This document shows, piece by piece, positions 14,018-40,777 of a stretch of 64,000 nucleotides of DNA; positions within the stretch are counted from its first letter, which is position 1; each line of letters opens with the position of its first letter. Below the pieces are notes generated by a model. That model saw nothing but the letters and a program-made list of their open reading frames with translations, was not told where the DNA came from and made no database searches. Where the stretch lies: positions 4,867,501-4,931,500 of the forward strand of contig NZ_CP014301.1 in assembly GCF_001562255.1 (NCBI RefSeq), written 5' to 3'. The translations under genes and the position numbers were made by a program. The DNA is from Bosea sp. PAMC 26642. GTDB lineage: Bacteria; Pseudomonadota; Alphaproteobacteria; Rhizobiales; Beijerinckiaceae.

Positions 14018-14224
14018 ATGCAGACCCCGCTGCGGGAGATCGTGGCCGTCCAGGCTCGAACCTGGTCAGGCATTGAGCAGCCCAACGAGGCTGCCGGCAT
14101 CATGGCTGATGCGATGAGCCCCACCATCGAGGGTTTCGCGGCGTTGCGAGGCCAACTCGCCTTTGAGGACGAGCCGTCGAGCTTCGAGGCCGCGCTCCAG
14201 GCGACGAAGGAGCCGCAACCATGA
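14018..14224 (+). CDS. AtzG-like small subunit of amidase 1
   Basis: This 68-aa protein is encoded directly before an amidase and overlaps it by 4 bp (ATGA). That is the arrangement of AtzG-AtzE (1-carboxybiuret hydrolase) and of GatC with GatA. AGAGAGGAG lies just before ATG 14018. The protein is predicted helical with an acidic C-terminal segment FEDEPSSFEAA; the EP pair recurs in all five small proteins of the island. It probably wraps the amidase and stabilises it. The sequence is divergent, so the family call rests largely on size, position and the EP motif. Confidence 0.7.
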   Translation: MQTPLREIVAVQARTWSGIEQPNEAAGIMADAMSPTIEGFAALRGQLAFEDEPSSFEAALQATKEPQP

Positions 14225-15654
14225 ACGCTCAGGCGAAAAGCTCGCTGCTGCATCTGTCGCTGACCGATGCCGCCGATGCGCTCAAGGACGGGGCGGTCAC
14301 CGCAGTCGAACTCACCACCGCCGCACTCGAAGCCTTCACGCGCGTCGACGAGGTGATCAACTCGGCGATCTGGCTCGAGGGCGCGGCCGCGCTGGAGGCG
14401 GCGGAGACACTCGACAAGAAGCGGAAGTCGGGCGCCACGCTCGGGCCGCTGCACGGCCTGCCCCTGGCCCACAAGGACATGTACTACAAGGCCGGCAAGC
14501 TCTCTACCTGCGGCTCGGCGATCCGCAAGGATTTCCGCCCGAGCTACACCGCAACCGTGATGGAGAGGCTGGAAGACGCCGGCTCCGTCACACTCGGCGG
14601 GCTGAACATGGCCGAGTTCGCGCAGAACCCGACCGGCCACAACCAGCATTACGGCCATTGCCGCAATCCCTGGCATCCCGATTACTGCACCGGCGGCTCC
14701 TCTTCCGGCTCGGGAGCTGCGGTCGCGGCGCGGCTGATCTATGGCGCGCTGGGCTCGGACACCGGCGGCTCGATCCGACTTCCGGCTGCGATCTGCGGCG
14801 TTACCGGAATCAAGGCGACGCAAACCCGCGTTTCGCGCCACGGCGTGATGCCGCTCTCCTTTTCGGCCGACAATGTTGGGCCTTTGACCCAGACGGCCCG
14901 CGATGCCGCCCGTTTCCTCGGCGTGATCGCCGGCCACGACCCGAAGGACGCGACCTCGGCCTCCGAGCCCGTGCCCGACTATGAGGCAGCCCTGACCGGC
15001 GACATCAGGGGCATGCGCATCGGCGTTCCGACCAACTACTTCTTCGACGGGATCGATCCCGAAGTGCAGGCTGCCTTCGACGCCGTGGTCGCGGTGCTGC
15101 AGGCGCGCGGCGCCGTCATCGCGCCTGTCACGATACCCCATATGGATGCGGTCGCGACTTATGGCGGCATCGTCTCACGCGTCGAGGGCGGCACGATCCA
15201 TGCCCAATGGATGCGCCAGCGCCCGCAAGACTATGCCGTGCATCTAAGCGGCAGGCTCTATCCCTCACAGGGCATTCCCGGCACCTATTATCTCGAGGCA
15301 CTGGCTCGGCGCGGCGCGATCCTGAAGGCGGTGGCGGCCACGGTCTTCGGCGTTTGCGACGCCTTCATCACGCCGACCCTGCGCATGAAGGTGCCGACGC
15401 TGCTGGCGACCGACATCGATGCCGGCACGCCGGGCGCGATCGAGACGTTCCAAGACGTCTCGATCAACACCAGACCGATCAACTATCTCGGCCTGCCCTC
15501 GGTCAGCGTGCCCTGCGGGCTCGATTCGAACGGCCTGCCGATCGGTTTTCAGATCCAGGGCCGCCCCTTCGCCGAGGCGCGCGTGCTCAAGATCGCCGAC
15601 GCCTATCAGCGCGATACGGACTGGCACCGCCGCTTGCCCCCCAACGTGTCCTGA
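14221..15654 (+). CDS. Amidase 1 (amidase-signature family, AtzE/GatA-like)
   Basis: The protein has 477 aa. The Ser-cisSer-Lys triad is complete: Lys85 in AHKDMYYKAG, Ser160 in CTGGSSSGSG, and nucleophile Ser184 in DTGGSIRLPA, with the standard 24-residue spacing. It should hydrolyse a C-N amide bond in the cytoplasm. It is the most divergent of the six island amidases; it lacks the GPSFDLP-PP-RNPW block of the others and has NPTGHNQHYGHCRNPW instead. It is coupled to its own small subunit and followed after 39 bp by a kinase-like gene. The substrate is unknown. Confidence 0.92.
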   Translation: MNAQAKSSLLHLSLTDAADALKDGAVTAVELTTAALEAFTRVDEVINSAIWLEGAAALEAAETLDKKRKSGATLGPLHGLPLAHKDMYYKAGKLSTCGSAIRKDFRPSYTATVMERLEDAGSVTLGGLNMAEFAQNPTGHNQHYGHCRNPWHPDYCTGGSSSGSGAAVAARLIYGALGSDTGGSIRLPAAICGVTGIKATQTRVSRHGVMPLSFSADNVGPLTQTARDAARFLGVIAGHDPKDATSASEPVPDYEAALTGDIRGMRIGVPTNYFFDGIDPEVQAAFDAVVAVLQARGAVIAPVTIPHMDAVATYGGIVSRVEGGTIHAQWMRQRPQDYAVHLSGRLYPSQGIPGTYYLEALARRGAILKAVAATVFGVCDAFITPTLRMKVPTLLATDIDAGTPGAIETFQDVSINTRPINYLGLPSVSVPCGLDSNGLPIGFQIQGRPFAEARVLKIADAYQRDTDWHRRLPPNVS

Positions 15655-15693
15655 CGCGATGAAGCCGGCATAAACCACGGACCGTCATCCGCA

Positions 15694-16620
15694 ATGAGCG
15701 CGACCAGGCTGCATGCCGACGAGGTGGCGATCGACGCCGCACTCGCCGGCCGCCTGGTCGCCAGCCAATTTCCCGCCTGGCGCGACCTGGCCCTGACGCG
15801 CATCGCATCGGGCGGCACCGACAACGCCATCTTCCGCCTCGGCGAAGAGTTCTGCGTGCGCATGCCGCGCTACCCCGCGGCTGCGGCGCTGGTCGGCAGG
15901 GAAAAGCTATGGCTGTCGCGGCTGGCGCCGCAACTGCCGCTCGCCATCCCCACGCCGCTCGCCATGGGCTCGCCCGGCGAAGGCTATCCGTTTTCCTGGT
16001 CGATCTGCCGCTGGATCGCCGGCGAGGATGCGATGACGGGCAGGCTGTCCGACGGTGGCGCAGCGGCGCGGACGCTGGCGGGCTTCATCGCGGCGCTCCG
16101 GGCGATCGACGCGTCGGGCGGACCGCCATGCGGAGACGCGAATTTCGAGCGCGGCGTGCCGCTCGCGCAACGTGACCGGCGCGTTAGGGAAGCCATCGCT
16201 TTGCTGCCGGAAGACATCGATGCTTGCGCCGTCGCGCGGGCCTGGGAGGAGGCGCTCGCCGCCCCGCTCTGGCCTGACGCGCCGGCCTGGCTGCATGGCG
16301 ACATCCATCCCGGCAACCTGATCCTGCGCGACGGTGCGATCGTCGCGGTGATCGATTTCGGCTGTGTCGGCATCGGCGACCCGGCCTGCGACCTGCAGCC
16401 GGCCTGGACCCTTTTTTCCGCGGCCGAACGCGCGATCTTCCGCGCGCATCTTGCGCCGGACGAGGCGAGCTGGGTACGGGGGAGGGGCTGGGCCTTGTCC
16501 GTCGCGGTGATCGCGCTGCCCTACTATACGGGGAGGAATCCGGTGATCGTCGGCATGGCGCGCCGCGCGATCGATCAGATCCTGCTCGATCGCGGCTTGT
16601 CGGCATGCCGCGCCTCCTGA
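15694..16620 (+). CDS. Aminoglycoside phosphotransferase/choline-kinase-like protein
   Basis: The protein has 308 aa. The APH-fold features are visible: the glycine-rich start GGTDNAIFRLG (40-50), VRMPRY in place of the ATP lysine strand, the catalytic loop LHGDIHPGNLIL (200-211), and the metal-binding VIDFGCVGIGDPACDL (219-234). It should phosphorylate a small hydroxylated or amino substrate, not necessarily an antibiotic. It lies 39 bp after amidase 1, same strand, so it is probably co-transcribed and may modify the amide substrate or a hydrolysis product. It converges with the SDR gene 15 bp away. Confidence 0.85.
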   Translation: MSATRLHADEVAIDAALAGRLVASQFPAWRDLALTRIASGGTDNAIFRLGEEFCVRMPRYPAAAALVGREKLWLSRLAPQLPLAIPTPLAMGSPGEGYPFSWSICRWIAGEDAMTGRLSDGGAAARTLAGFIAALRAIDASGGPPCGDANFERGVPLAQRDRRVREAIALLPEDIDACAVARAWEEALAAPLWPDAPAWLHGDIHPGNLILRDGAIVAVIDFGCVGIGDPACDLQPAWTLFSAAERAIFRAHLAPDEASWVRGRGWALSVAVIALPYYTGRNPVIVGMARRAIDQILLDRGLSACRAS

Positions 16621-16635
16621 TTGTCAGGCTCGGCT

Positions 16636-17415
16636 CTACCGGATCGACGGCCTGCGCTGGCCGCCATCGACATGGATGTCGGCCGCATTGATACCGGCGG
16701 CGCGGGGCGAGACGACGAAGGCGATCGCGTCGGCGATCTCGTGGACTGAGCCTAGCCGTCTCCCCGGAAAATCCTCCGCCTCGAATTTCGCGAAATCCTC
16801 GGGGCGCTCGGCTTTGGTCCGTTCCCAGCCGCCGCCTGGAAAGATGGTCGAGCCCGGCGAGACCGCGTTGACGCGGATGCCCTGTGGTCCCAGTTCCCAG
16901 GCGAGCGAGCGAGCGGCATGGATCAGCCCGGCCTTGGCGGCGGCATATTGTGCGCCGCGCGTCGCCGGCGCGCGACCCGAAATCGAAGCGACGAAGACCG
17001 CATTGGCGATCTCGCTTTGGGCCAGAGCGGGCGTCGCCGCACGCAGCGCCGCGATCGAATGGCCGACATTGAACCGGAAGGTCTTCTCCCAATCCGCATC
17101 GCTGGCATTCGCCAGTTCGCGCTCGCCGAAACTGCCTCCGGCAGTGGCGATCAGGATGTCGAGCTCGTCATAGGCGGAGATTGTCTCCGCGACGGCGCGC
17201 GCGGCATCCTCTGCCAGCGTGAAATCGGCCTGGATGGTGACGACCTCGCCGCCAGCCGCCCTGATCTCGGCGGCCGCGGCGGCCAGGGTGTCGGCGCCGC
17301 GCGCCGCGATGGCGAGCCTGACGCCTTCGCCTGCAAGGACGAGTGCGGTCGCCTTGCCGATGCCGCGGCTGCCGCCAGTGATCAGCGCGATCCTACCCCT
17401 GAGGCCCAGATCCAT
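16636..17415 (-). CDS. Short-chain dehydrogenase/reductase
   Basis: This 259-aa classical SDR has a TGGSRGIG cofactor loop (13-20), Asn116, Ser144, Tyr157 and Lys161 (YAAAK), and an NAG-like motif changed to TAGG. After the active site it has GIRVNAVSPGSTIFPGGGW. It probably oxidises or reduces an alcohol/ketone with NAD(P)H. It is the last gene of the five-gene operon starting at the small subunit at 21228, separated by 1 bp from the acetamidase gene, so it likely processes the carbon skeleton released by amide hydrolysis. Confidence 0.9.
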   Translation of the reverse strand: MDLGLRGRIALITGGSRGIGKATALVLAGEGVRLAIAARGADTLAAAAAEIRAAGGEVVTIQADFTLAEDAARAVAETISAYDELDILIATAGGSFGERELANASDADWEKTFRFNVGHSIAALRAATPALAQSEIANAVFVASISGRAPATRGAQYAAAKAGLIHAARSLAWELGPQGIRVNAVSPGSTIFPGGGWERTKAERPEDFAKFEAEDFPGRRLGSVHEIADAIAFVVSPRAAGINAADIHVDGGQRRPSIR

Positions 17416-17416
17416 C

Positions 17417-18388
17417 TCAGGCGGCCTTCTGCGCGAGGAGTGTCTTGGGCGCGAGGAGCTTCTTGGCGAGCATGCAGTGGATTCCCTTGGAGCCGTTGAC
17501 CGTCTGCGTCACGCGCAGATCGGCGGCGATCGAGCACAGCGTATAGGCATCCTCGCGCGACAGGCCCGCCACCTCGCCGATCAGCACGATCATGTCGCGC
17601 AGCGCCATCTCGGCGCAGCGGTCGAGGTCGGGATCCATGCCCATGGTCAGGTAATGCGTCGGCGTCTCGGCGCGCGGATAGTTAAAGGAGAGATCCTCGC
17701 GCAGGATGAAGGTGAAACGACCTTGCAGAGCCGTTTCGATCGCCGTGACGCAGACCTCGCCGTCGCCCTGCGCCGCATGGCCGTCGCCGCAGGAGAACAG
17801 CCCGCCCTCGACGAAGACCGGCAGGAAGATCGTTGCACCCGCGACCATTTCCTTGTTGTCGAGATTGCCGCCGAAGGCGCGCGGCACGATCGAGGTCACT
17901 CGTCCCCAGGCGGGCGGCGGCGCCGTGCCCATCACCCCGAAGAAGGGCGCGAGCTGCAGCTCAAGGCCCCAAGGCAGCTTGCCGGTCTTCGCATTGAGGT
18001 CGAGCGGGATGTGCAGCAGGCGGACATCGTGGAAGTCGCTCTGCAGCGTGCCGGCGAGCGGGCGGATGACGTTGTAACCCCAGTCCTGCCGGAGCTGGAC
18101 ATCCTCGATCCGCACCTCCAGCACATGGCCGGGCCTGGCGCCCTCGACCGCGACGGGACCGGTCAGGATGTGCCCCGGCAAGGTTTTCTCGGCATGGGCG
18201 TGGACGTCGGCGATCTCGGGCGGGGTCATGAAACCGGCATCGGCCTTGGGATGTACCTCGGGCGCGCCGGTCACGGTGTCGACAGTCACAGTGTCGCCGC
18301 TTGCGATGGTGAGCTTCGGCTTGAGCGCCGCATCGAAGAAGCCCCAATGGCAGGTCGCGCCGCTGGCTTTGAGGTGATGATGGGTCAT
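17417..18388 (-). CDS. Acetamidase/formamidase family protein
   Basis: The protein has 323 aa and matches the FmdA/AmdA family, which hydrolyses small primary amides to acid and ammonia. Typical blocks are present: GHILTGPVAVEGARPGHVLE, then GLFSCGDGHAAQGDGEVC with the conserved GDxHAxQGDGE, and later ETPTHYLTMGMD. It has no signal peptide. It sits in one operon with amidase 2, an EamA permease and an SDR, and adds a second amide-cleaving fold to the island. The substrate could be the small amide left after the first cleavage. Confidence 0.92.
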   Translation of the reverse strand: MTHHHLKASGATCHWGFFDAALKPKLTIASGDTVTVDTVTGAPEVHPKADAGFMTPPEIADVHAHAEKTLPGHILTGPVAVEGARPGHVLEVRIEDVQLRQDWGYNVIRPLAGTLQSDFHDVRLLHIPLDLNAKTGKLPWGLELQLAPFFGVMGTAPPPAWGRVTSIVPRAFGGNLDNKEMVAGATIFLPVFVEGGLFSCGDGHAAQGDGEVCVTAIETALQGRFTFILREDLSFNYPRAETPTHYLTMGMDPDLDRCAEMALRDMIVLIGEVAGLSREDAYTLCSIAADLRVTQTVNGSKGIHCMLAKKLLAPKTLLAQKAA

Positions 18389-18436
18389 GCGTCGTCGTCC
18401 GGTTCGGGGGGCGGGTGTGGTCAGGCAGAAGTTTCG

Positions 18437-19546
18437 TCAGGCATGCGTGTTGTCGGGCAGGCGCGCGACGGCCAAACGGCGCGCGCCGGCATTATGGCGC
18501 ATCGTATAGACCGTGCCGCCGGCGACCAGCGCGGCGCCGACGATGGTCACGAGGTTCGGAATTTCGGCGAAGACCAGATAACCGCTCGCGGTCGCAAGAA
18601 GCAGGCGGACGAAATCGAGCGGAGCCAAGGCGGACGCTTCGCCCATCTGATAGGCGCGGGTGACGAGCCACTGCCCGGCCGTGCCGACGACGCCGATCCC
18701 GATCATCAGCGCCCATTCGTTCGGGGTCGGGTGCGTCCACAGAAAGAGGGCGGGCCCGCCGAGCGCGATCAGCACGACGGCACCCTGCCAGAACAGGATC
18801 GTCTCCGTCTTCTCGGTATGACCGAGCACGCGCACCGAGATCGTGATACCGGCCCCGAACAGCGCTCCGAGAATGGCGAGCAGCGCATAGCCGTTCATCG
18901 CCTCGCCCGTCGGCCGCAGCATGATGACGACGCCGGCGAACCCGAGCGCCATGGCGATCCAGCGCCGTCGGTCGACGACCTCGCCAAGGATGACGATGGC
19001 GAGCAGCGTGACGAACAGCACCTGCGCGAAGCCCAGCGCCGTGGCCTCCGCCATCGGCAGGTAGATCAGCGCCGTGAAGCCGCAGAGCATGGCGCCGAGC
19101 GAGAACATCCCCCGCAGGAATTGCAGTCCCGGACGGCTGGTGTGCATGATCCGAGGCAGGGCACGCCCGACCACCAGACCGAGGATCAGCGTCATCACCA
19201 ACTGGCGGACAATCAGGATCTGCGCCAGCGGCACGCGCCCGCCGGCCAGCTTGATAAGCGTCATCATCACCGCGAAGGCGGCGAAGGCGGCGATCATCAA
19301 CAGCGAGCCGCGCATGTTGGGCGTTGCCGCGCACCACCAGCCATGGGCGCGCTGCAGATGGCGCGGCCGTGCCGCAGGCAATGCGTTCGCCGCCGCCGGC
19401 AGGGCGGTCGCAGCCAGGATGGATGCGGCCGCCGCGAGGCTTTCCAAAGACGGCCCCGCGAGATCGGGGTCGGTGCCGGCCATCTCGGGCGACGCCTCAT
19501 CGCCCATGTCGGCGGCGACGCACCCGTCGGCATAATCCTCGCTCAT
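18437..19546 (-). CDS. EamA/DMT-family permease 1 with a long N-terminal extension
   Basis: The protein is 369 aa from ATG 19546, which follows a good GGAGGGACC site. The DMT core, about ten helices with two EamA repeats, begins at about residue 75 (MRGSLLMIAAFAAFAVMM) and includes FLRGMFSLGAMLCGFTALIY and the second repeat near GTAGQWLVTRAYQMGEASA. The ~70-residue leader is unusual, so an internal start is possible. DMT proteins of this class mostly export or import amino-acid-like metabolites. It lies between amidase 2 and the acetamidase in one operon. Confidence 0.85.
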   Translation of the reverse strand: MSEDYADGCVAADMGDEASPEMAGTDPDLAGPSLESLAAAASILAATALPAAANALPAARPRHLQRAHGWWCAATPNMRGSLLMIAAFAAFAVMMTLIKLAGGRVPLAQILIVRQLVMTLILGLVVGRALPRIMHTSRPGLQFLRGMFSLGAMLCGFTALIYLPMAEATALGFAQVLFVTLLAIVILGEVVDRRRWIAMALGFAGVVIMLRPTGEAMNGYALLAILGALFGAGITISVRVLGHTEKTETILFWQGAVVLIALGGPALFLWTHPTPNEWALMIGIGVVGTAGQWLVTRAYQMGEASALAPLDFVRLLLATASGYLVFAEIPNLVTIVGAALVAGGTVYTMRHNAGARRLAVARLPDNTHA

Positions 19547-19583
19547 GGTCCCTCCGGACCGGGACGATCGCTCCGAAAGTCGC

Positions 19584-21017
19584 TCACGCCGCCTGCCTGA
19601 GCGCGGCCGTGGCCGGTCTGATGCCGGTGAGTGCCAGCGCACGCTCCAGGCTCGCCCCGACACGAAGAACCATCGGCTCGTCGAAGGGGCGCCCGACGAT
19701 CTGCACCGAGAGCGGGAGGCCCGACGCCGAGAACCCCGCCGGCATCGATATGGCCGGGTTCCCCGTCACGTTGAACGGCATGGTCTGGATCGGCCAGTTG
19801 GGCGGGAAGGCATCCGACATACTGTCGAAGCGTGCCGCCGGCGCCAGCGCCGAGGCGCAAAGGATCACGTCGTACTGTTTCAGCAATTGGTGGTTGACCG
19901 CCACCGCCAGTTCCCGGCGCAGGCGATAGGCCTGGGTCAGGTCGGCGCCGCTGGTCAGCGCGCCGAGGATCATCCGGGTGAAGGTCAGCCTGCCGAAATC
20001 GAGCGGCCGCTCGCGGTAGTCCTTCTCATGGATGGCGAAGGCCTCCGAGAACATGATCACTCGCCCGACCGCGTTGAACAGTTCGTAATCGGGGATCGTC
20101 ACCTCCTCGACGATGGCCCCCGCCTTGGCGAGAAGGTTTGCCGCGTTGTCGATGGCCGCGACGACCTCCGGAGAGACGCCCTCTGCTTCGGCGAAGAAGT
20201 GTCGGGGCAGCGCGATCTTGAGGCCGCTCACATCCCCCTCCAGCCCGCTCCGGAAATCCGGCTTCGGCACATCGGCGCTGGCCGGATCGAGCGGATCATG
20301 GCCGGTGATGACCTCCATGGTGAGGGCGGCATCCTCGACGGTCCAGCTCAGAGGGCCGCAATGATCGAGCGTGTAGGAGAGCGGGAAGACGCCGCGCCGG
20401 GACACCAGCCCGTAAGTCGGCTTCAGCCCGACCGTGCCGCAATAGGCGGCCGGCCCGCGGATCGAGCCGCCCGTGTCGGAGCCCATCGCCATGCGGCACA
20501 GCCCCGCCGCCACGGCCGCACCGGATCCCGAGGACGAGCCGCCCGGGATATGCTCGGGGTTCCAGGGGTTGCGGGCCGGCGGAAACGGCAGATCGAAGCT
20601 CGGGCCGCCCAGGGCGAATTCGTGCGTCGAGAGCTTGCCAAGCAGCACGCCGCCGCCGGCTTTCAACTTCTCGGCCACGACGGAATCGGCCGCAGGCACA
20701 TTGTCGACCAGGAGCTTGGAGTGGCAGGTCGTGCGGATGCCGGCCGTATCGTAGATGTCCTTCAGCCCATAGGGCACGCCCTGCATCGGACCGGCATCGA
20801 TGCCCGCCTTGAAAGCGGCGTCGGCGGCCTCGGCATCGGCCAGCGCCCGCTCGGCGGTGACCGTGATGAAGCTGTTCAGCGCGCCGTCCAGCGCCGCGAT
20901 TCGCGCCAGCGCATCCTGCGCGAGCGTGCTCGCAGTCACCTGGCCTGAGCGCAGGGCCGCGCCGGTCTCGGCGATGGAGAGTTCATGCAGGGGCTTGGTC
21001 ATAGCTGTCGCGGACAT
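19584..21017 (-). CDS. Amidase 2 (amidase-signature family)
   Basis: The protein has 477 aa with a complete triad: Lys86 (YGLKDIYDTAG), Ser161 (PGGSSSGSG) and Ser185 (DTGGSIRGPA). It shares with amidases 3-6 the FALGGPSFDLPFPPARNPW block and GLKPTYGLVSRRGVFPLS, so these five are paralogues. It begins 1 bp after the stop of its small subunit. It hydrolyses an unknown amide. A second ATG five codons in (21002) is an alternative start. Confidence 0.92.
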   Translation of the reverse strand: MSATAMTKPLHELSIAETGAALRSGQVTASTLAQDALARIAALDGALNSFITVTAERALADAEAADAAFKAGIDAGPMQGVPYGLKDIYDTAGIRTTCHSKLLVDNVPAADSVVAEKLKAGGGVLLGKLSTHEFALGGPSFDLPFPPARNPWNPEHIPGGSSSGSGAAVAAGLCRMAMGSDTGGSIRGPAAYCGTVGLKPTYGLVSRRGVFPLSYTLDHCGPLSWTVEDAALTMEVITGHDPLDPASADVPKPDFRSGLEGDVSGLKIALPRHFFAEAEGVSPEVVAAIDNAANLLAKAGAIVEEVTIPDYELFNAVGRVIMFSEAFAIHEKDYRERPLDFGRLTFTRMILGALTSGADLTQAYRLRRELAVAVNHQLLKQYDVILCASALAPAARFDSMSDAFPPNWPIQTMPFNVTGNPAISMPAGFSASGLPLSVQIVGRPFDEPMVLRVGASLERALALTGIRPATAALRQAA

Positions 21018-21018
21018 G

Positions 21019-21228
21019 TCAGACCCCTTTCATCAGGGTGACGAGGGAGAAGGTGTTGGACGGCTCCGCGGCGGCTGTGCGGGGCTGGCGCAGCAGCGCA
21101 CACATGCGCTTGAGGTCCCCGTAGCCGGAGAGGACGGCCTCCATCCGGTCCGCCGGGACCGCCACTTCGGCGCGCCGCAGCAGCACGTCCAGCTCGAGCT
21201 TCAGATCGGTCGCGCTCGTCTCGCCCAT
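21019..21228 (-). CDS. AtzG-like small subunit of amidase 2
   Basis: The protein is 69 aa from ATG 21228, preceded by GGGGACAGGGCG. It is mostly helical with a C-terminal TAAAEPSNTFSLV that keeps the EP motif. It is the first gene of the operon small subunit-amidase 2-EamA-acetamidase-SDR and lies directly downstream of a sigma-54 promoter at 21267-21283. Upstream in-frame codons run through that promoter, which excludes longer starts. Confidence 0.75.
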   Translation of the reverse strand: MGETSATDLKLELDVLLRRAEVAVPADRMEAVLSGYGDLKRMCALLRQPRTAAAEPSNTFSLVTLMKGV

Positions 21229-21266
21229 CGCCCTGTCCCCTGTTCCGCTTTTGTCAGCCCGAGCGA

Positions 21267-21491: not shown

Positions 21492-21529
21492 ATTGAATAC
21501 AATCAGGCGGATTTGGCATGGGCCTTGCT
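21492..21529 (+). promoter_or_regulatory. Sigma-54 promoter with 12-bp operator (cysteine hydrolase 1)
   Basis: ATTGAATACAAT (21492-21503), 9 bp, then TTGGCATGGGCCTTGCT (21513-21529). The -24/-12 element matches TGGCAY-N5-TTGC. The start site would be near 21540, giving a leader of about 70 bases. It is divergent from the module at 21267-21304, with about 190 bp between them where an activator of both could bind. Confidence 0.8.
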
Positions 21530-21610
21530 GTGATGGGGGGCTATCGTCGGCGCGGCCCGAGGCGGGCCCTGCGTCAGCGCGACCCTCTTCCCGTCGATCA
21601 GGAGCGTCCC

Positions 21611-22318: not shown

Positions 22319-22343
22319 ACGACTCCGCTCGTTCTAAAGACAT

Positions 22344-24398: not shown

Positions 24399-24457
24399 CC
24401 GATCCCCCATAGCCCCGATTGCGACCCAGAGCTGACGCGACCCAAGGGAGAACTTCC

Positions 24458-26327: not shown

Positions 26328-26338
26328 AAGGGTCCGTC

Positions 26339-27481: not shown

Positions 27482-27491
27482 GGAGCAAGCC

Positions 27492-28526: not shown

Positions 28527-28546
28527 CCCCGATTAGGGAGCGTCCC

Positions 28547-29257: not shown

Positions 29258-29394
29258 CCGGAGCGCTACGGCCTTGCGCGAAAGGACGGAGCCGACTTTT
29301 CGCTGCTGCAAGGCATTTAAACTTTTAGCATCGATAAATCCTTTCGCATTCGAGCGCTTTTGCCCGGATGCAACGTGATCAGCCAGAGAAAACC

Positions 29395-32471: not shown

Positions 32472-32488
32472 GACGGCGGGCGCCCGAG

Positions 32489-32525: not shown

Positions 32526-32686
32526 CACTTTCTCGTCAGAGAGACCGGCGTGCCGTTGACTTAGGGTCAATCAAGCCCTAGGTGCCTGCGCAATGTACAC
32601 GATCGCTGCGATTCCGCTTTCTGCGTGATCATTCCCGACCTCGCGATCATCGCGCTCAAACCCAGTTAGCGACAGGATTGGACATC

Positions 32687-33388
32687 ATGGCGACACGCGG
32701 CGTCTCGGTCACGAACAAGCTCAGGGAGGCCTTGCTCGAGGGCGAATACACCGGCGGCACCCGCCTGAACGAGGTCGATCTCGCGGACAGCCTCGCCGTA
32801 TCGCGCACACCGATCCGCGCCGCGCTGTCGACGCTCGCCGCCGAAGGCCTTCTCGAATACCGGCCCAACAGTGGCTATGCGGTCAAGACCTTTGCTGCCA
32901 AGGATATTGAGGGCATCTATGCCGTCCGTGCCAACCTCGAGGGGCTCGGCGCGCGTCTCGTCGCCCAGCAAGGTCTCTCGGACGTCCATCGTGGCTTGCT
33001 CCACAAGGCGCTGATGGACAGCGAGGATCTGCAATCCGTCGATGACTGGAACGAGGAGGTCGCCGATCGCTGGCGCGATCTGAACGACCGCTTTCACAAC
33101 ACGCTGATCGAAGCGTCGGGCAATTCCCATCTGGCGATGATGCTGCGCAAGTCGCGCGCCATTCCGCTGCTCAACCAGCTGAAATTCCGCTGGTTCGATG
33201 TGGCAACGATGGCCCGCGCCCATGACGATCACAGCCAGATATTCGCCGCCATCACCGGCGGCCAGGTCGTGCGCGCCGAGAGCATCGCGGCCGAGCACGT
33301 CTATCGTTCAGGCCAGCGTATCATTGAGCATTGGCGTAAGATGGATACGCGCAAGCCCATTGCGGCTGCCAAGGCCCGCGCGGCCTGA
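32687..33388 (+). CDS. GntR family regulator, FCD type; likely local repressor of the island
   Basis: The protein is 233 aa from ATG 32687. The N-terminal winged helix has LNEVDLADSLAVSRTPIRAA at about residues 27-46, and the C-terminal FCD domain contains LNDRFHNTLIEASGNSHL and AAITGGQVVRAESIAAEH. It is the only regulator inside the bracketed region. FCD regulators bind TTGTATACAA-like palindromes, which agrees with the ATTGNAYACAAT operators at four sigma-54 promoters here. It probably responds to the substrate or a product. It converges with amidase 3. Confidence 0.88.
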   Translation: MATRGVSVTNKLREALLEGEYTGGTRLNEVDLADSLAVSRTPIRAALSTLAAEGLLEYRPNSGYAVKTFAAKDIEGIYAVRANLEGLGARLVAQQGLSDVHRGLLHKALMDSEDLQSVDDWNEEVADRWRDLNDRFHNTLIEASGNSHLAMMLRKSRAIPLLNQLKFRWFDVATMARAHDDHSQIFAAITGGQVVRAESIAAEHVYRSGQRIIEHWRKMDTRKPIAAAKARAA

Positions 33389-33400
33389 GCGTCATGCCGA

Positions 33401-33424: not shown

Positions 33425-33436
33425 CGTAGCGCGGAG

Positions 33437-34846
33437 TCAGGCGGCCTTGGCCAGGCCGAGCATATCCGGGCGACGATCACGCCAGGAGGTCGCCTGCTCG
33501 AAGGCATGCGCCGCCTGCAGCAGCACCGCTTCGGCGAAGGGCCGCGCCGCGAGCTGGATCGAGACGGGCAGGCCATTGGGGCCGAAGCCCGAAGGCACGC
33601 AGATCGCCGGCATGCCGGTCAGGTTGAACGCCATGGTGAAGTTCGGCTTGTCGAGATTGTCCCAGCGCGGCACCTGGTCGATCGGTGGCGCCTCGTCGGG
33701 GTTGCCCGCCGTGAGCAGAACATCGACGCCGGCCATCGCCGCCGCCATTTCCGCGATCAGCTCGCGCCGGCGCCGCAGGGCCTGGACATAGTCCATGCCG
33801 GTGCAGAGCGCCGCGAAGACCAAGCGATCACGATAGCGCTGCCCGAATTTCTCCGGGTTCTTCAGCATCATCCGTTCATAAGCGGCGCCACGCTCCACCG
33901 TCGAGATGAAGAAGCCGGCAGCGTTGTATTCCTGCATGGCCGAGAGCTTGATCTCGACGACCTCCGCGCCGAGGCTCTCATAGGTCGCAATCGCCACATC
34001 GATGCCGGCCTTCACCGCGTCGGCGACGGGCCGGTCCGTTTCGTGCCAGCGCCGCAGCACCCCGACCTTCAGCCCCTTGGCGCCCTTGCCGAGGCCGGCG
34101 GTGTAGTCGGGCACCGGTCGGTTCGCGCTGGCGGGATCAGCGGGATCATGCCCCGCGAGCGCCTGCAGCATCAGCGCGCAGTCCTCGGTGGTCCACGCCA
34201 TCGGGCCGATATGGTCGAGCGAGTAGGCTGCCGGTGCGACGCCCGAACGGCTGACCAGCCCATAGGTCGGCTTCAGCCCGACGATGCCGCACAGCGCAGC
34301 GGGGCCGCGGATCGAGCCGCCGGTATCCGTGCCGAGCCCGCCGAGCACGAGCCCGGCCGCGACCGCGGCGCCCGTGCCGCTCGACGACCCGGCCGTGAAG
34401 CGTGTCGTGTCCCAGGGGTTGCGCGAAGGCGGCCAGGGCAGGTCGAAGGAGGGGCCGCCATCGGCGAATTCATGCGTGGTGAGTTTACCCATCAACACGG
34501 TGCCGGCGGCATCGAGCGCCGCGGCGCAGGTCGCGTCGGCGTCGGGAATGTTGCCAAGGTTGTGGGCGGACTGGCAGGTCGTCAGGATGCCCTTGGTGTC
34601 GATGATGTCCTTGAGGCCGATCGGGATGCCGTGCAGCGGCGATCTCGGCCCCGAGGCCTTGATCTCGGACTCGGCCTTTTTGGCGTCGGCCCGGGCGCGA
34701 TCCTCGGTCAGGGTGACGAAGGCGTGCAGCTCCGGCTCGAAGGCCTTGACGCGGGCGAGGCACATCTCGGTGAGTTCGACCGGGGAGAGCTTGCCCGCCT
34801 CGATCAGGGCGGCAGCCTCGCTGATGGCCAGGATGTCCGTGCTCAT
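33437..34846 (-). CDS. Amidase 3 (amidase-signature family)
   Basis: The protein has 469 aa with triad Lys79 (GLKDIIDTKG), Ser154 (TAGSSSGTG) and Ser178 (DTGGSIRGPA). The start overlaps the stop of its small subunit (ATGA). It shares the GPSFDLPWPPSRNPW and GLKPTYGLVSRSGV blocks with amidases 2 and 4-6. It is the last gene of the long minus-strand operon that begins at binding protein 2 (42502). The substrate is unknown. Confidence 0.92.
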   Translation of the reverse strand: MSTDILAISEAAALIEAGKLSPVELTEMCLARVKAFEPELHAFVTLTEDRARADAKKAESEIKASGPRSPLHGIPIGLKDIIDTKGILTTCQSAHNLGNIPDADATCAAALDAAGTVLMGKLTTHEFADGGPSFDLPWPPSRNPWDTTRFTAGSSSGTGAAVAAGLVLGGLGTDTGGSIRGPAALCGIVGLKPTYGLVSRSGVAPAAYSLDHIGPMAWTTEDCALMLQALAGHDPADPASANRPVPDYTAGLGKGAKGLKVGVLRRWHETDRPVADAVKAGIDVAIATYESLGAEVVEIKLSAMQEYNAAGFFISTVERGAAYERMMLKNPEKFGQRYRDRLVFAALCTGMDYVQALRRRRELIAEMAAAMAGVDVLLTAGNPDEAPPIDQVPRWDNLDKPNFTMAFNLTGMPAICVPSGFGPNGLPVSIQLAARPFAEAVLLQAAHAFEQATSWRDRRPDMLGLAKAA

Positions 34847-35046
34847 CGGGCGACCTCCTCGGTGGGGAAGCTGAAGATGTGGGCCGGCTCGGACATGTAG
34901 CTGCGCTCGCCCCTGATCCGGGCCGACATCTCGACGATGTAGCCATAGGCTTCGGCATATTCAGCGATCTGCTCGGTCGTCAGTTGAAATCCGGCGCGCG
35001 CCAGAAAGGCGCCCATCTCGGCTTCGGATGCGATCGGTGTGGGCAT
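34843..35046 (-). CDS. AtzG-like small subunit of amidase 3
   Basis: The protein has 67 aa: a helical N-terminal part (EMGAFLARAGFQLTTEQIAE), then YIVEMSARIRGERSYMSEPA and HIFSFP. The tail, basic residue-Tyr-x2-EPAHIF, is shared with the small proteins at 37470 and 39119 and resembles the AtzG-like (DUF4089) family, which normally precedes AtzE-type amidases. The 4-bp overlap with amidase 3 enforces equal production. An ATTCTCC-complement ribosome site (GGAGAAT) precedes the ATG. Confidence 0.85.
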   Translation of the reverse strand: MPTPIASEAEMGAFLARAGFQLTTEQIAEYAEAYGYIVEMSARIRGERSYMSEPAHIFSFPTEEVAR

Positions 35047-35108
35047 GGCTCAATTCTCCTTCGAGGGGCGGATGCCCGCAGCTTGCGGGCGGCGGAATGC
35101 CGGGCCGG

Positions 35109-35987
35109 CTAAGCCGGCAGCCGGCGCTGCTTGCGATGCTCGTCCTGGAAGATGAAGAGGGTGGCGCTCATCACGATCGCGGCGCCAAACAGCGCCCAGC
35201 GATCGGGAATCTCCTGGTAGGCAAGCCAGGCGAACACCGCGATGAAAGGCAGCCGGGCGAAATCGAATGGCATGACCGTCGAGGCCGGCGCGTTGCGCAG
35301 CGCCAAGAACAACGTCAACCGGCCGGCGAACATCGCTACCGCCATCACCACCAGGAACACCATCATGTCGAGCGACGGTGTCCGCCAGTAGAGCACCGCG
35401 GGGATGAGCCCGGTCACCACCGGGATCAGGGTTGTGACGGCGACGATCCGGCTCATGCTCTCGATCTGCGTCAGCCGCTTGGACACAAGATACATCGCGG
35501 CCATCGACAGGGTCGAAATCATCAGGGCGATGGTGCCGGCATCGAGCGCGACGAAGCCCGGCCGGGAGATCACCATCACACCCGCGAAGCCCACCATTAC
35601 GGCCGCCCAGCGGCTGCGCGAGACGCTCTCGCCGAGCAGCACGCCGGCGAGCGCCGTCACGATGATCGGGGCGGCGAAGGTCATCGCTGTCGCCTTGGCC
35701 AGCGGCACATGGGCGAGTGCGTAGAACCAGGTCAGGTTCGAGATGCAACCGACGCCTGTCATGATCGCGTAGAGCTTGCGCTTCTCGGTTCGGTCGGGCA
35801 GCTCCGCCCCGCCCCTCAACTGCGGCCAGACGAAGACGAGCATGATCAGATTCGTCAGGAAGCTGATCTGAAACGGGTGCAGCTCCGTCGCGATCTGCCG
35901 TACGAGCGAATTCCCGCCCGCCAGGCAGGCCGTGCTCAGGATCATCCAGAGGATGCCGGCCTGAACGGTGTTGCGGGCGTCGGCCAT
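35109..35987 (-). CDS. EamA/DMT-family permease 3
   Basis: The protein is 292 aa from ATG 35987, ten helices, with two EamA repeats (AGILWMILSTACLAGGNSLV at the start; PLAKATAMTFAAPIIVTALA; second repeat NAPASTVMPFDFARLPFIA). An in-frame start at 36098 would overlap amidase 4 and add a non-hydrophobic leader, so it was rejected. It lies between the amidase 4 and amidase 3 pairs in one operon. Confidence 0.88.
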   Translation of the reverse strand: MADARNTVQAGILWMILSTACLAGGNSLVRQIATELHPFQISFLTNLIMLVFVWPQLRGGAELPDRTEKRKLYAIMTGVGCISNLTWFYALAHVPLAKATAMTFAAPIIVTALAGVLLGESVSRSRWAAVMVGFAGVMVISRPGFVALDAGTIALMISTLSMAAMYLVSKRLTQIESMSRIVAVTTLIPVVTGLIPAVLYWRTPSLDMMVFLVVMAVAMFAGRLTLFLALRNAPASTVMPFDFARLPFIAVFAWLAYQEIPDRWALFGAAIVMSATLFIFQDEHRKQRRLPA

Positions 35988-36061
35988 GGCGCAGCAGGTT
36001 CCTTTGCGGTTTTTGAGGAAGCTAGAGGCTGCGGTCTCGCGGGCCGCAGCGCTTAGACGGC

Positions 36062-37468
36062 TTATGCCGCAAGCAGCGATGGCCGCATGGAGCGCCATTG
36101 GGTCGCCTGCTCATAGGCATGGCCGATCTGGGAGACGGTCGCCTCCTCGAAGGCGTGCCCTACCAGTTGCATGGCGACAGGCAGTCCGGTTCCGTCCTCA
36201 TAACCGGCGCAGACGGCGAGTGCCGGAAGGCCCGTGACGTTGAAGGGCATGGTGATCGATGGCTTCTGGTACATCAGCCATTTCGGCACCTTGTCGATCG
36301 GCTGCGCGGGGAAGGGCGAACCCGCCGTCAGCAGAACATCGACACCGACCATCGCCTCGGCGACGGCGGCGCTCAGTTCCTGCCGCTGCCGCAGCGCCTG
36401 CACATAATCGGCGCCCGTCAGCAGCCCGCCCATGCTGATCCGGTCGCGCGCGATCTCGCCATAGAGTTCCGGCGTCGCGCGCAGATCGGCCTCGTGGATC
36501 GCGAAGGCCTCCGAGGACATGATGATCATGCCGACCGCGGCGAAATCCATCAGCGGCGGCAGCGTGACCTCCTTGATCACGCAACCAAGCGACCGGAAGA
36601 CGGCGATCGCCGCCTCGATCGCCGCCAGCACGGGCGGCGCCGCCTCATGGTCCCACTCGTGGAAATGGCGGATGACGCCGATTGTCTTGCCCCTGACCGG
36701 CTCATCGAGCTTGCCCGTGAAATCTGGAGTCGCGACGTCGGCGCAGGCCGGATCGAGCGAGTCGTAGCCCGCCATGGCCTGCAGCATCAGCGCCGCATCC
36801 TCGACCGTCCAGCACATCGGCCCGGCATGGTCGAGCGATTGCGACAGCGGAAGGATGCCCCGGCGCGAGAGCAGCCCATAGGTCGGCTTTATGCCGGCCA
36901 GCCCGCAGAGCGAGGACGGGCTGCGGATCGAGCCCCCGGTGTCCGAACCGGTCGCGCCCAGCACCATGCCGGCAGCCACCGCCGCGCCGGAGCCCGACGA
37001 CGATCCGCCCGTGGTGCGCGTCGGATCCCAGGGATTGCGGGCCGGCGGTGTGAAGAGGTCGAATGACGGGCCGCCGATGGCGAATTCGAAGGTCCCGAGC
37101 TTGCCGGTGATCACCGCGCCGCTGTCGCGCAGCTTCGCCACGGTGAAGGCGTCCTCGGTCGGAACACGGCTCTTCAGCAGGTTGGAATGGCCCGTCGTCG
37201 CCACTCCCGCCGTATGGTAGATGTCCTTCAACCCGACCGGGATGCCGTGCATCGGGCCGCGATGCTCGCCTTTCAATATCTCGGCTTCGGCTGCTTCGGC
37301 CGCCTCCAGCGCCAGTTCCGGCGTGAAGGCGACATAGGTGTTCAAGGTGGCATCGAGCGCCTGCGTGCGCGCGATGCAGGCCTTGGTCAGTTCGACCGGC
37401 GAGAGCTTGCGCTCCGCCATCAGGGTCGAAGCCTCGCGGATGGTGAGCAGTGTCGGATCGCTCTTCAT
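36062..37468 (-). CDS. Amidase 4 (amidase-signature family)
   Basis: The protein is 468 aa from ATG 37468, 1 bp after its small subunit. The triad is Lys81 (GLKDIYHTAG), Ser156 (TGGSSSGSG) and Ser180 (DTGGSIRSPS). Unlike its paralogues it has SPSSLCGLAG after the nucleophile and FDLFTPPARNPW in the shared block, hinting at a different pocket. An upstream in-frame start at 37510 would overlap the small subunit and is unlikely. Confidence 0.92.
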   Translation of the reverse strand: MKSDPTLLTIREASTLMAERKLSPVELTKACIARTQALDATLNTYVAFTPELALEAAEAAEAEILKGEHRGPMHGIPVGLKDIYHTAGVATTGHSNLLKSRVPTEDAFTVAKLRDSGAVITGKLGTFEFAIGGPSFDLFTPPARNPWDPTRTTGGSSSGSGAAVAAGMVLGATGSDTGGSIRSPSSLCGLAGIKPTYGLLSRRGILPLSQSLDHAGPMCWTVEDAALMLQAMAGYDSLDPACADVATPDFTGKLDEPVRGKTIGVIRHFHEWDHEAAPPVLAAIEAAIAVFRSLGCVIKEVTLPPLMDFAAVGMIIMSSEAFAIHEADLRATPELYGEIARDRISMGGLLTGADYVQALRQRQELSAAVAEAMVGVDVLLTAGSPFPAQPIDKVPKWLMYQKPSITMPFNVTGLPALAVCAGYEDGTGLPVAMQLVGHAFEEATVSQIGHAYEQATQWRSMRPSLLAA

Positions 37469-37469
37469 C

Positions 37470-37658
37470 TCAACGGCTCGCCGGGGTGAAGATATGTGCC
37501 GGCTCGGCATTATAGCCGCGTGGTTTGCGCACGCGTTCGCGCATGGCCTGCAGCAGCATATAGGCGCTCCGCATCTCGTCCATGTTCTCGGGTCTAACGC
37601 TGATGCCGGCCCTGTCGAGCAGCACCTGGAAGGCGTCGGCTGAGATGGTCTCGCTCAT
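37470..37658 (-). CDS. AtzG-like small subunit of amidase 4
   Basis: The protein is 62 aa from ATG 37658, which follows GGAGACGACC; another ATG four codons earlier (37670) has no ribosome site. It is helical (ADAFQVLLDRAGISVRPENM) with the tail KPRGYNAEPAHIFTPAS. EPAHIF is identical to the small subunit at 34843. It pairs with amidase 4 by position. Confidence 0.85.
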   Translation of the reverse strand: MSETISADAFQVLLDRAGISVRPENMDEMRSAYMLLQAMRERVRKPRGYNAEPAHIFTPASR

Positions 37659-37688
37659 GGTCGTCTCCATGCAAGGGGGATGGTCAGG

Positions 37689-39107
37689 TCACTCGGCCGC
37701 CATGGCATGCTGCGCCCATTGGGCCGGGCGCAGATCGCGGAAGGCGGTCGCCCTCTCGAAGGCGCTGCCGACGCGCAGCACGAGATCGTCCTGGAAGGGG
37801 CGCCCGACGATCTGCATGTTGAGCGGAAGCCCCGCCGCGGAGAAGCCGGAGCAGACCGACAGGGCCGGCGAGCCGGTGAGATTGAAGACGCGGGTGAAGG
37901 AGGGCCGCGAGCGCGACATCATGTTGCCGAGATCGCCGAGCTTGGGCGCCACGCCCGGCATGGTCGGGCAGATCAGGACGTCTACGCCCTCGAACACGGT
38001 CGCGATCTCGGCGATCAGGCGGCCGCGCTCGCGCAGCGCGTTGACATAGTCGCAGGCCCGCACGAAGGCGCCCATCATGATGCGTTGGCGGGCAAGCTCG
38101 CCGTAAAGCTCCGGCGTCGCCTTCAGCGTTTCCTCGTGGAAGGCGAAGGCTTCCGAGCGCGAGATCAGGGCCGCGACGTCGCCATAAACCGACAGCGGCG
38201 ACAGCGTGACGTCGATCACCGAGCAGCCGAGATCGCCGAAGATGGTCAGCGCCGCCTCGATGCCCGCCGTGATCTCGGGATCGATCTCGGCGTCCGTCTC
38301 GAAGAAATGCCTGACGACGCCGATGCGCAGCCCCTTCACATCCTTCTGCAGGGAGCCGGCGAAATCGGGCTTGGCGACGTCGGCGCTGCCAGGATCGAGC
38401 GGGTCGTGCTGCGCCAGCACGTCCATCATCAGCGCGCAGTCCTCGCTCGTCCAGCACATCGGTCCGCCATGGTCGAGGCTGAAGGAAAGCGGCAGGATGC
38501 CCCGTCGGCTGACCAGCCCGTAGGTCGGCTTCAGCCCCGAAATCCCGCACCAGGCGGCGGGGCCGCGGATCGAGCCGCCGGTATCGGTGCCCATCGAGCC
38601 CATCGCCAACCCGGCCGCGATCGCGGCGCCCGACCCCGAAGACGAGCCTGCCGGATCATGGGCAAGGTTCCAGGGATTCTTCGCCGGCGGCCAGGGCAGG
38701 TCGAAAGACGTGCCGCCGATGGCGAATTCCCAGGTCGAGAGTTTGCCCAGCAGGATGGTGCCGGCCTCCGCCAGCAGTCGCGTCGTGGTGGCGTCCTCCT
38801 CCGGGACATGGTCCTTGTAGAGGGCGGAATGGCCGGTCGTCGGGATGCCCTTGGTGTTGTAGATGTCCTTCAGGCCGATCGGCACGCCATGGAGCGCGCC
38901 CTTGTAGCCGCCATTCATGATCTCGCTTTCGGCCTTGCGCGCCGCGGCCACCGCCTGCTCGGGCAGCACACGGAGATATGCGTTGAGCTGCCCGTCGAAG
39001 GCCTCGATCCGGGAGAGATAAGACGCGGTCAATTCGACCGGAGAGAGCTTCCTGGCCTTCAGCAGCGGAGCGGCCTCGGCGATGGTCAGATCGTGCAGCG
39101 CGGTCAT
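37689..39107 (-). CDS. Amidase 5 (amidase-signature family)
   Basis: The protein is 472 aa from ATG 39107, preceded by GGGAGGCCGCC. The triad is Lys80 (GLKDIYNTKG), Ser155 (PAGSSSGSG) and Ser179 (DTGGSIRGPA). After the nucleophile it has AAWCGISGLKPTYGLVSRRG, and TSFDLPWPPAKNPW in the shared block. It begins 11 bp after its small subunit's stop. It is part of the binding-protein-2 operon. Confidence 0.92.
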   Translation of the reverse strand: MTALHDLTIAEAAPLLKARKLSPVELTASYLSRIEAFDGQLNAYLRVLPEQAVAAARKAESEIMNGGYKGALHGVPIGLKDIYNTKGIPTTGHSALYKDHVPEEDATTTRLLAEAGTILLGKLSTWEFAIGGTSFDLPWPPAKNPWNLAHDPAGSSSGSGAAIAAGLAMGSMGTDTGGSIRGPAAWCGISGLKPTYGLVSRRGILPLSFSLDHGGPMCWTSEDCALMMDVLAQHDPLDPGSADVAKPDFAGSLQKDVKGLRIGVVRHFFETDAEIDPEITAGIEAALTIFGDLGCSVIDVTLSPLSVYGDVAALISRSEAFAFHEETLKATPELYGELARQRIMMGAFVRACDYVNALRERGRLIAEIATVFEGVDVLICPTMPGVAPKLGDLGNMMSRSRPSFTRVFNLTGSPALSVCSGFSAAGLPLNMQIVGRPFQDDLVLRVGSAFERATAFRDLRPAQWAQHAMAAE

Positions 39108-39118
39108 GGCGGCCTCCC

Positions 39119-39310
39119 TCACTTGGTCCAGAGCCGGAGCGCATGGACGGGCTCCTGCAGGTAGCTGCGCTTGACCCGGATGTTGCGGGCGGCAGTCTCC
39201 AGATCGGCGACGGAGCCCTTCAGGGATTCTAGCGTCTCCGGGCCGACCCTCAGGCCGTATTCGGCAAGCTTGGCCTCGATCGGGATCGGCGTGGTTGGCG
39301 TGTCGGTCAT
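39119..39310 (-). CDS. AtzG-like small subunit of amidase 5
   Basis: The protein has 63 aa, begins MTDTPTTPIPIEAKLAEYGL and ends VKRSYLQEPVHALRLWTK. It keeps the basic-Tyr-x2-EP-x-H tail of the other two small proteins in this operon. It lies 42 bp after amidase 6 and 11 bp before amidase 5, so it could in principle serve both. Confidence 0.85.
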   Translation of the reverse strand: MTDTPTTPIPIEAKLAEYGLRVGPETLESLKGSVADLETAARNIRVKRSYLQEPVHALRLWTK

Positions 39311-39352
39311 GGCGGCCTCACTGGGACAGGCGGAGGGGAGGGGGTGGCAGCG

Positions 39353-40777
39353 TTATTCGGCGGCGAGGCTCATTGGCGTTGCGGCCTCGAGGGTCGGCCG
39401 GCGCGCGCGCCAGGCGGTCGCGGCCTCATAGGCCCGGGCGGCGCGGTAGATCGTCGCCTCGCCGAAGGCATAGCCGGCGATCTGAACGGAGAGCGGCAGG
39501 CCGGCGGCCGAGAAGCCGCAGCACATCGTCAGCGAGGGCATGCCGGTGACGTTGAAGGGGAAGGTCAGCGGCGGCTTGTTGAACAGGCCGAATTTCGGAA
39601 CGTCCGTGATCAGGGGGGCGGGCGTCGCGGTCGCGGCGCAGACGACGATGTCGAAGCGCGACATCGTCTGCGCCACCGCCGCGACCAGTTCCGCGCGCAG
39701 GCGCAGCGCCTGGACATAGTCGCTGGCATCGATCAGCCCAGCGAGCAGCAGCCGATCCCGCAGGATCTCGCCATAGAGCTCCGGCTTGCCCTTGATCTGC
39801 GGCTCGTGGATGGCGAACGCCTCCGAGAGCAGAATCATAGACCCGCAGGCAGCGAAGTCGGCGAGCGGGGGCAGGGTGATCTCTTCGACCACGGCGCCGA
39901 GATCGGCCAGCGTCGTCGCAACCGAGGCGACCGCGTCCTTGACCTCGCCCGTGGCGTCGGCCTGCTCCCCGAGTGACGGCAGATAGCCGACGCGCAGGCC
40001 CTTTACGCCAGTGCCCAGCAACGCCTCCGGCGCGGGATCGGGCCTGTCTGCGCTGGCGGGGTCGAGCCTGTCATGTCCGGCCAGCACTTTCATCAGGATG
40101 GCGTTGTCCTCGACCGTCCAGGTCATCGGGCCGATATGGTCCAGGCTTTGCGAGAGCGGCAGCACGCCGCGCCGGCTGACCAGCCCATAGGTCGGCTTCA
40201 TCCCGACGATGCCGCAGAACGCCGCCGGCAGGCGGATCGAGCCGCCCGTATCGGTGCCGAGCGCCGCCGGCAGGAAGCCGGCCGCGACCGCCGCGCCCGA
40301 GCCCGACGACGAGCCCCCGGTGAAATGGGCGAGATTCCACGGGTTGCGCGCCGGCGGGAACGGCAGGTCGAAGGACGGCCCGCCCATCGCGAATTCATGG
40401 GTCGCGAGCTTGCCGAGAATGATTGCGCCCGCCGCCTTCAGCTTCTGGGTGACGAAGGCGTCGTCCTTGGCCCAATTGTCGATAAGCTGGTGCGAGTGTG
40501 CGGTGGTGCGCACGCCCTTCAGGTCGATGATGTCCTTCAGCCCGACCGGCACGCCATGCAGCGGCCCGCGGCTGATGCCGGCCATCACTTCGTCTTCGGC
40601 CTTTTTGGCCTGAGCCAGCGCGAGATCGGCAGTGACCTCGATGAAGGAATGGGTCATCCCGTCGAGCGCCGCGACCCGGGCGATGAGCGCCTTAGTCAGT
40701 TCGACCGGGGAAACGGTCTTGGCCGCGATCCCTTTGGCCAATTCTGCGACGGTCATGAAATGCAGAGGTGCGGGCAT
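39353..40777 (-). CDS. Amidase 6 (amidase-signature family), no small subunit upstream
   Basis: The protein has 474 aa with triad Lys81 (GLKDIIDLKG), Ser156 (TGGSSSGSG) and Ser180 (DTGGSIRLPA). It follows binding protein 2 after 93 bp and is the only amidase in the island not directly preceded by an AtzG-like gene. CAGGAGGC lies just before ATG 40777. It may work alone or share the small subunit encoded at 39119-39310. Confidence 0.92.
   Translation of the reverse strand: MPAPLHFMTVAELAKGIAAKTVSPVELTKALIARVAALDGMTHSFIEVTADLALAQAKKAEDEVMAGISRGPLHGVPVGLKDIIDLKGVRTTAHSHQLIDNWAKDDAFVTQKLKAAGAIILGKLATHEFAMGGPSFDLPFPPARNPWNLAHFTGGSSSGSGAAVAAGFLPAALGTDTGGSIRLPAAFCGIVGMKPTYGLVSRRGVLPLSQSLDHIGPMTWTVEDNAILMKVLAGHDRLDPASADRPDPAPEALLGTGVKGLRVGYLPSLGEQADATGEVKDAVASVATTLADLGAVVEEITLPPLADFAACGSMILLSEAFAIHEPQIKGKPELYGEILRDRLLLAGLIDASDYVQALRLRAELVAAVAQTMSRFDIVVCAATATPAPLITDVPKFGLFNKPPLTFPFNVTGMPSLTMCCGFSAAGLPLSVQIAGYAFGEATIYRAARAYEAATAWRARRPTLEAATPMSLAAE

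Follow-up and report, generated by a model that had tools for sequence, protein, structure and literature searches.

Six amidases and five small genes

The window analysed here, 64,000 nucleotides corresponding to 4.8675-4.9315 Mb of the 5.51-Mb genome of Bosea sp. PAMC 26642 (contig NZ_CP014301.1), contains six genes for amidase-signature enzymes, A1 to A6, and five small open reading frames (ORFs), s1 to s5, which lie directly upstream of the first five of them. In detail, A1 is located at 14221-15654 on the forward strand, and A2 (19584-21017), A3 (33437-34846), A4 (36062-37468, with its ATG at 37468), A5 (37689-39107, with its ATG at 39107, a GTG at 39122 being also possible) and A6 (39353-40777) are on the reverse strand. 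All six score above the PF01425 cut-off and thus belong to the amidase-signature family, for which the Pfam profile finds 18 matches genome-wide, or about 17 genes, since one frame accounts for two of the matches. The Lys, the cis-Ser and the nucleophilic Ser are kept in all six according to the alignment, as had been claimed in an earlier reading of the letters alone (the sequence-only reading), which listed six amidases with intact Lys-Ser-Ser triads.

No module enzyme that was scanned reaches a curated functional cut-off. With the AtzE models TIGR02715 and NF006631 the six amidases score 265-322 bits, the cut-offs being 425.75 and 461, and the best score with the GatA model is 322.6 against a cut-off of 481.1, so that all six fall below it. 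An NCBIfam scan of the six amidases and nine other module proteins, which covered none of the Opp permeases and ATPases or the EamA and AbrB proteins, gave no match over cut-off among the best 25 of each protein. JGI labels many relatives of A5 as GatA; A5, the sole case tested, lies far under the GatA cut-off.

The small ORFs encode proteins of 62-69 amino acids (aa). s1 (14018-14224, forward strand, 68 aa), the partner of A1, overlaps it by an ATGA and is of a divergent type with the motif LRGQLAFEDEPSSFEAAL. The others are on the reverse strand: s2 (21019-21228, 69 aa) ends 1 bp before A2, s3 (34843-35046, 67 aa) overlaps A3 by an ATGA, s4 (37470-37658, 62 aa) ends 1 bp before A4 and s5 (39119-39310, 63 aa) ends 11 bp before A5. 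These lengths, spacings and overlaps agree with what had been read from the letters alone. There is nothing small upstream of A6; s5, which is also directly 3' of A6, sits between A6 and A5.

To compare substitution rates, stop-to-stop frames of relatives were aligned to the window ORFs. With 6-7 close same-genus orthologues, the pooled ratio of non-synonymous to synonymous substitution rates (dN/dS) was 0.11, 0.18, 0.23, 0.12 and 0.14 for s1 to s5, respectively, the amidases giving 0.05-0.13. The single distant copy tested (genome G168) yielded higher ratios, 0.49-0.56 for s1, s2 and s4 and 0.28-0.40 for A1, A2 and A4. In close relatives purifying selection acts on the small ORFs; they behave as genes, so that chance ORFs can be rejected. 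In addition, s1 adjoins A1 in all 11 other fetched regions which have A1 at at least 62% identity, and its LRGQLAFEDEPSSFEAAL stretch is nearly invariant across relatives.

The small-protein family and the history of the pairs

None of the five small proteins shows a convincing Pfam family at E values up to 10, and s2 to s5 match no NCBIfam model at 1e-3 (s1 was outside that scan). s2 to s5 are members of a large family that has neither a name nor a Pfam model. To define it, an iterative profile was built from nine seeds and searched against 20,330 frames in 116 loci at E<1e-3, where it converged at 112 frames, a few places being counted twice because loci overlap. s2 (E 1.2e-16, s2 being itself among the profile rows), s3 (3.3e-22), s4 (2.6e-21) and s5 (3.5e-15) are matched clearly. 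s1 is far more divergent than these four and aligns with their family at an hhalign probability of 42; we regard it as a remoter relative.

Almost every family member (111 of 112) adjoins or sits inside an amidase frame, and by tblastn coordinates the last (in locus L053) ends about 10 bases before an amidase. As the loci were fetched by an amidase query, this placement holds within the fetched loci only. The small partner can lie upstream or downstream of the amidase or form the C-terminal domain of the same protein, with 22 such natural fusions in 20 loci. In loci L070 (8385-11686) and L074 (5319-8581) two tandem fusion genes are preceded by a third amidase, whose small gene is separate.

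In the Bosea genome itself the profile finds four strong matches, all adjoining module amidases, the next being at E 0.0019 in a 454-aa frame. The family is present in 22 of 289 genomes of the class, at most 21 candidates having been scored per genome and adjacency to amidases being outside that count. Our own genome has four members; of the others, two have five and one has four, spread over several contigs. Among 5.8 billion proteins the profile gave 2140 matches out of 2995 candidates; none of the 120 matches listed contains a Pfam domain, and wherever the source supplies a name it is "hypothetical".

AtzE-AtzG is the 1-carboxybiuret hydrolase of Pseudomonas sp. ADP (PDB 6c62). In a profile-profile comparison the s2-s5 family matched AtzG with a probability of 91 and a score of 31.8, whereas shuffled profiles reached at most 12.6, so that the family is AtzG-like in the wider sense; it is also linked to GatC, less than to AtzG. 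In the fold comparisons GatC chains stand, weakly, at the top of the ranking for the AlphaFold2 model of s3, and GatA heads the matches of the amidase domain of a related fusion (the rows cover residues 7-469 only). A sequence-profile search of PDB with the small family placed chance EF-hand matches above GatC and contained no AtzG chain among the matches listed. The s1 family alone gave no AtzG match in the profile-profile comparison. The proposal that all five small proteins are AtzG-like subunits consequently stands for s2 to s5, from the profile comparison, the natural fusions and the weak fold ranking, and is less sure for s1.

The differences from both known systems are nevertheless considerable. 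Unlike AtzE-AtzG, five pairs are found in one module, their relatives show C-terminal fusions and downstream partners, the amidases score under the AtzE cut-offs, and PF13318 (AtzG-like) does not match s1 to s5 at E values up to 10; its only match over cut-off in this genome adjoins another amidase, at 2.269 Mb. In locus L182 a PF13318 match lies within a 668-aa open frame, which could be a fusion or merely a long frame. PF02686 (GatC) likewise misses s1 to s5, its sole match in the genome at E<=0.001 lying at 1.2066 Mb. The Arg of the GatA motif KVRTLI, which is presumably the residue binding the glutamine carboxylate, is not kept in the module amidases according to the alignment. The 22 fusions, which have the opposite order to gatC-gatA, also set the family apart: according to one study (PMC7541841), a non-systematic look through about 500 sets of gatCAB turned up no gatC-gatA fusion in nature.

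A quick tree of 141 amidases was calculated, with no bootstrap and with warnings of long branches. Partial amidases, matches below 150 bits and the loci L135, L136, L161, L162 and L088 were excluded from it, as were further Bosea copies that are nearly identical, for instance L111, whose A5 shows 95% identity. A2 to A6 fall into a clade of 120 amidases (SH-aLRT, the approximate likelihood-ratio branch support, 97), which holds nearly all partner-bearing amidases, and A1 branches outside it. A partner was detected for 110 of the 120, five of them only via a gene common to a neighbour, compared with one of the 21 amidases outside; in that row (L092) the small gene has an amidase on either side and probably belongs to the other of the two.

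The distance matrices of amidases and small proteins correlate over 106 pairs with r 0.62 (2000 permutations gave at most 0.12), and with close amidases removed the value is still 0.43 (permutations at most 0.13). Five rows were dropped from this comparison because a neighbour had already claimed the one small gene available to them (L062 A5, L092 A5, L113 A6, L120 A6 and the A6 of the window), and for the seven rows with more than one candidate partner priority was given to fused, then upstream, then downstream genes. The congruence indicates that the pairs travel as units. The five nearest non-Bosea relatives of s5 all partner A5-type amidases, four of them from a position downstream of the amidase, which indicates that s5 belongs with A5 by descent and that A6 has none of its own; s5 as a partner of A6 by descent was rejected accordingly. 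A6 might still share s5 with A5.

In a more careful tree of 48 rows, A2, A3 and A5 are each placed in a well-supported clade that they share with amidases from other bacteria. For A4 the sole companion is a Bosea orthologue encoded in a smaller version of the module (support of the wider group 88/59), and the nearest relatives of A6 are weakly supported (87/81). Forcing Bosea A2 to A6 into one clade costs 489 log-likelihood units (approximately unbiased, AU, test, p 2.3e-5), and a grouping of A5 with A6, named after the tree had been seen, is rejected with p 4e-7. At least A2, A3 and A5 are thus of separate old origin, and the pairs look like old units gathered in the module, not fresh copies. 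The sequence-only reading had A2 to A6 arising by duplication of a pair within the island and took congruent trees as the sign of it; congruence is indeed found, and duplication in place is rejected. Several amidases per locus also occur elsewhere, with four in L040 and three each in L070 and L074. A plasmid search with A5 at E<=1e-90 gave 27 records, every one below 60% identity, indicating that there is no close plasmid copy of A5.

Extent, gene content and distribution of the module

A blastn comparison of the window with same-genus loci delimits a conserved module at 13950-42400. Homology to other Bosea copies starts at 13,911-14,002 in five genomes and ends at 42,379-42,403 in six, the flanks compared being mostly about 1.6-5 kb per genome and blastn pieces under 150 bases being ignored. 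G159 shares a flavocytochrome gene left of the module too. On the right, the conserved unit reaches about 42.40 kb and takes in a second family-5 solute-binding protein (40871-42529, reverse strand; Pfam and blastn), whose true start is probably at about 42.40 kb since the homology ends near its 5' end.

The remaining genes were assigned by Pfam. Following A1, the module contains an APH-type kinase (15694-16620, forward), which is probably accessory and not core because it was detected in only some copies (G190, G159), and, on the reverse strand, a short-chain dehydrogenase (16636-17415), an acetamidase/formamidase-family protein, FmdA (17417-18388; PF03069), and a first EamA-type transporter (18437-19663), whose start is unrefined and which overlaps A2. 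The forward-strand genes in the centre are a first isochorismatase-fold hydrolase (21518-22318), a first family-5 solute-binding protein (22736-24355), the OppB-type (24419-25414) and OppC-type (25425-26327) permeases, the OppD-type ATPase (26324-27481), the OppF-type ATPase (open frame 27141-28526, the coding part probably from about 27.48 kb), a second isochorismatase-fold hydrolase (28436-29257, with its true start probably further in), an asparaginase-family protein below the type II cut-off (29368-30396), a second EamA-type transporter (30400-31314), an AbrB (PF05145) protein with a provisional start codon (31311-32471) and a GntR/FCD regulator (32582-33388). A third EamA-type transporter lies at 35109-36098 on the reverse strand. 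Solved relatives of the isochorismatase-fold proteins and FmdA in PDB are RutB (among the nearest for the first isochorismatase-fold hydrolase), yecD-type and acetamidase chains, none of them close. The other hydrolases that had been proposed, namely two cysteine hydrolases, an asparaginase-like protein and an acetamidase, are hence recovered as two isochorismatase-fold, one asparaginase-family and one acetamidase/formamidase-family protein.

The module is present in 8 of 67 Bosea genomes, our own included (A1 at at least 92% identity), with A5 at at least 93% in seven of them, whereas in G165 a contig breaks off within reach of A5 and a fragment of the gene is present at its edge; the module is split across contigs in G163 and G165. 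A smaller version in rearranged order is found in two further genomes, G150 and G168. It comprises A1/s1, A2/s2, A4/s4, the two isochorismatase-fold genes, FmdA, the dehydrogenase and OppB-D, and no A3, A5, A6 or asparaginase within the 20 kb fetched. Parts of the gene set recur in other loci: L040 combines its four amidases with Opp and isochorismatase genes, L048 and L049 have asparaginase, isochorismatase, an A3-type amidase and FmdA together, L042 has binding proteins, an A5-type amidase, isochorismatase, AbrB and asparaginase together, and L046 also has part of the set.

Proposed function and alternative explanations

Taken together, our analysis suggests, with a probability of about 0.7, that A2/s2 to A5/s5 (and with less certainty A1/s1) form two-subunit hydrolases in a discrete Opp-type uptake and amide-degradation module of about 28.4 kb. 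That amides are imported and hydrolysed is suggested by the combination of Opp-type uptake genes with four unrelated amide-hydrolase families in one block. The Opp-type ATP-binding cassette transporter and the two binding proteins would import small amide compounds, from which the six amidase-signature, two isochorismatase-fold, asparaginase-family and acetamidase-family hydrolases would release ammonia or amine, while the EamA and AbrB proteins may move products; the amides presumably serve as a nitrogen or carbon source. Each small protein is predicted to be GatC/AtzG-like, with two helices and a tail of the Glu-Pro-Ala-x-x-Phe type that would dock onto its own amidase, and the docked protein might stabilise the amidase or close its active site as AtzG serves AtzE. 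The 22 natural fusions give indirect support to such a predicted complex; binding, docking and a stabilising role in Bosea are proposed by analogy. The cluster does look like the dedicated, undescribed amide-degradation system that had been suggested, and neither a published account of it nor a described cluster of such kind was found in the open-licence literature.

As to what is degraded, general nitrogen scavenging, in which every pair has its own small amide substrate and only transport and regulation are in common, has a probability just short of even. The separate old lineages of at least A2, A3 and A5, the other neighbours that their relatives have in other bacteria, and the collection of four unrelated amide-hydrolase families are in accordance with it; however, the module is kept as a single block with sharp ends, which is more than loose genes would need. 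This block inheritance, the one GntR-family regulator inside the block and the recurrence of subsets of the gene set (L048, L049, L042) are in favour of the six amidases and four other hydrolases acting in sequence on one Opp-imported multi-amide compound, a possibility to which we give distinctly less credence. The smaller version in G168 and G150 speaks against such a pathway, as it indicates that the full gene set is not obligatory. Scattered substrates are somewhat more likely than one sequential pathway. Tentatively, and against the odds as we see them, the module could even be a complete and undescribed pathway that degrades a single class of multi-amide compounds, be they natural products or pollutants. 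At least four different two-subunit amidases would then make up a GatC-dependent enzyme class of their own, the third after GatCA and AtzEG, in which the small subunit is a mobile element of specificity or assembly that evolution has put in front of the catalytic subunit, after it or, by fusion, at its C-terminal end.

If one pair had been duplicated in tandem again and again within the island, this would account for the shared organisation of the pairs and for the 49-53% identity of A5 to A2, A3, A4 and A6, but such an origin is very improbable in view of the topology tests; a duplication in ancient times, preceding the spread of the pairs, is likely. It is equally hard to maintain that the small ORFs encode leader peptides or regulators that have nothing to do with the amidases, or are spurious, as their shortness and the lack of curated matches might suggest, given the purifying selection, the C-terminal fusions, the profile link to AtzG and a pairing that is kept both upstream and downstream. 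Additional tRNA-dependent amidotransferases (GatCA paralogues) can be practically discounted. In their favour, the solved structure nearest to A5 by sequence, and to the related fusion by fold, is GatA, and JGI uses that name for many relatives; but all six amidases miss the GatA cut-off, no GatB is found among the module genes scanned with Pfam, and the genome has, at 1.2066-1.2083 Mb, a GatC adjoining its best amidase match, which is presumably GatA.

The ANSA amidase of acesulfame-degrading Bosea, likewise an amidase-signature hydrolase of this genus acting on a small amide, was rejected as a counterpart owing to its different setting: it is plasmid-borne and accompanied by a LysR regulator, and the main texts of the two papers on it contain no occurrence of GatC or AtzG (PMC10413263, PMC11500405).

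Two-subunit amidases as such are already known from AtzEG and GatCA; what is added here is an unnamed partner family with natural fusions. Many database amidases named GatA or plainly amidase may need a small partner that annotation has missed, and if the AtzG precedent holds, such amidases would be insoluble or inactive when expressed without it. The module, in turn, offers a defined gene set from which a new route of amide degradation in soil bacteria may be worked out.

Outside the module, a HipA C-terminal-domain ORF, possibly a remnant, lies just to its left (12800-13444). The left flank at 7510-11081 encodes SoxY, SoxZ, a SoxA/TsdA-type cytochrome and the flavoprotein of a flavocytochrome c sulphide dehydrogenase, with a molybdopterin-domain protein upstream (4876-7143). 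An AAT (6-aminopenicillanic acid acyltransferase-like) protein (1620-2765) stands beside a candidate family-5 binding protein ORF (both within 12-2765 of the window).

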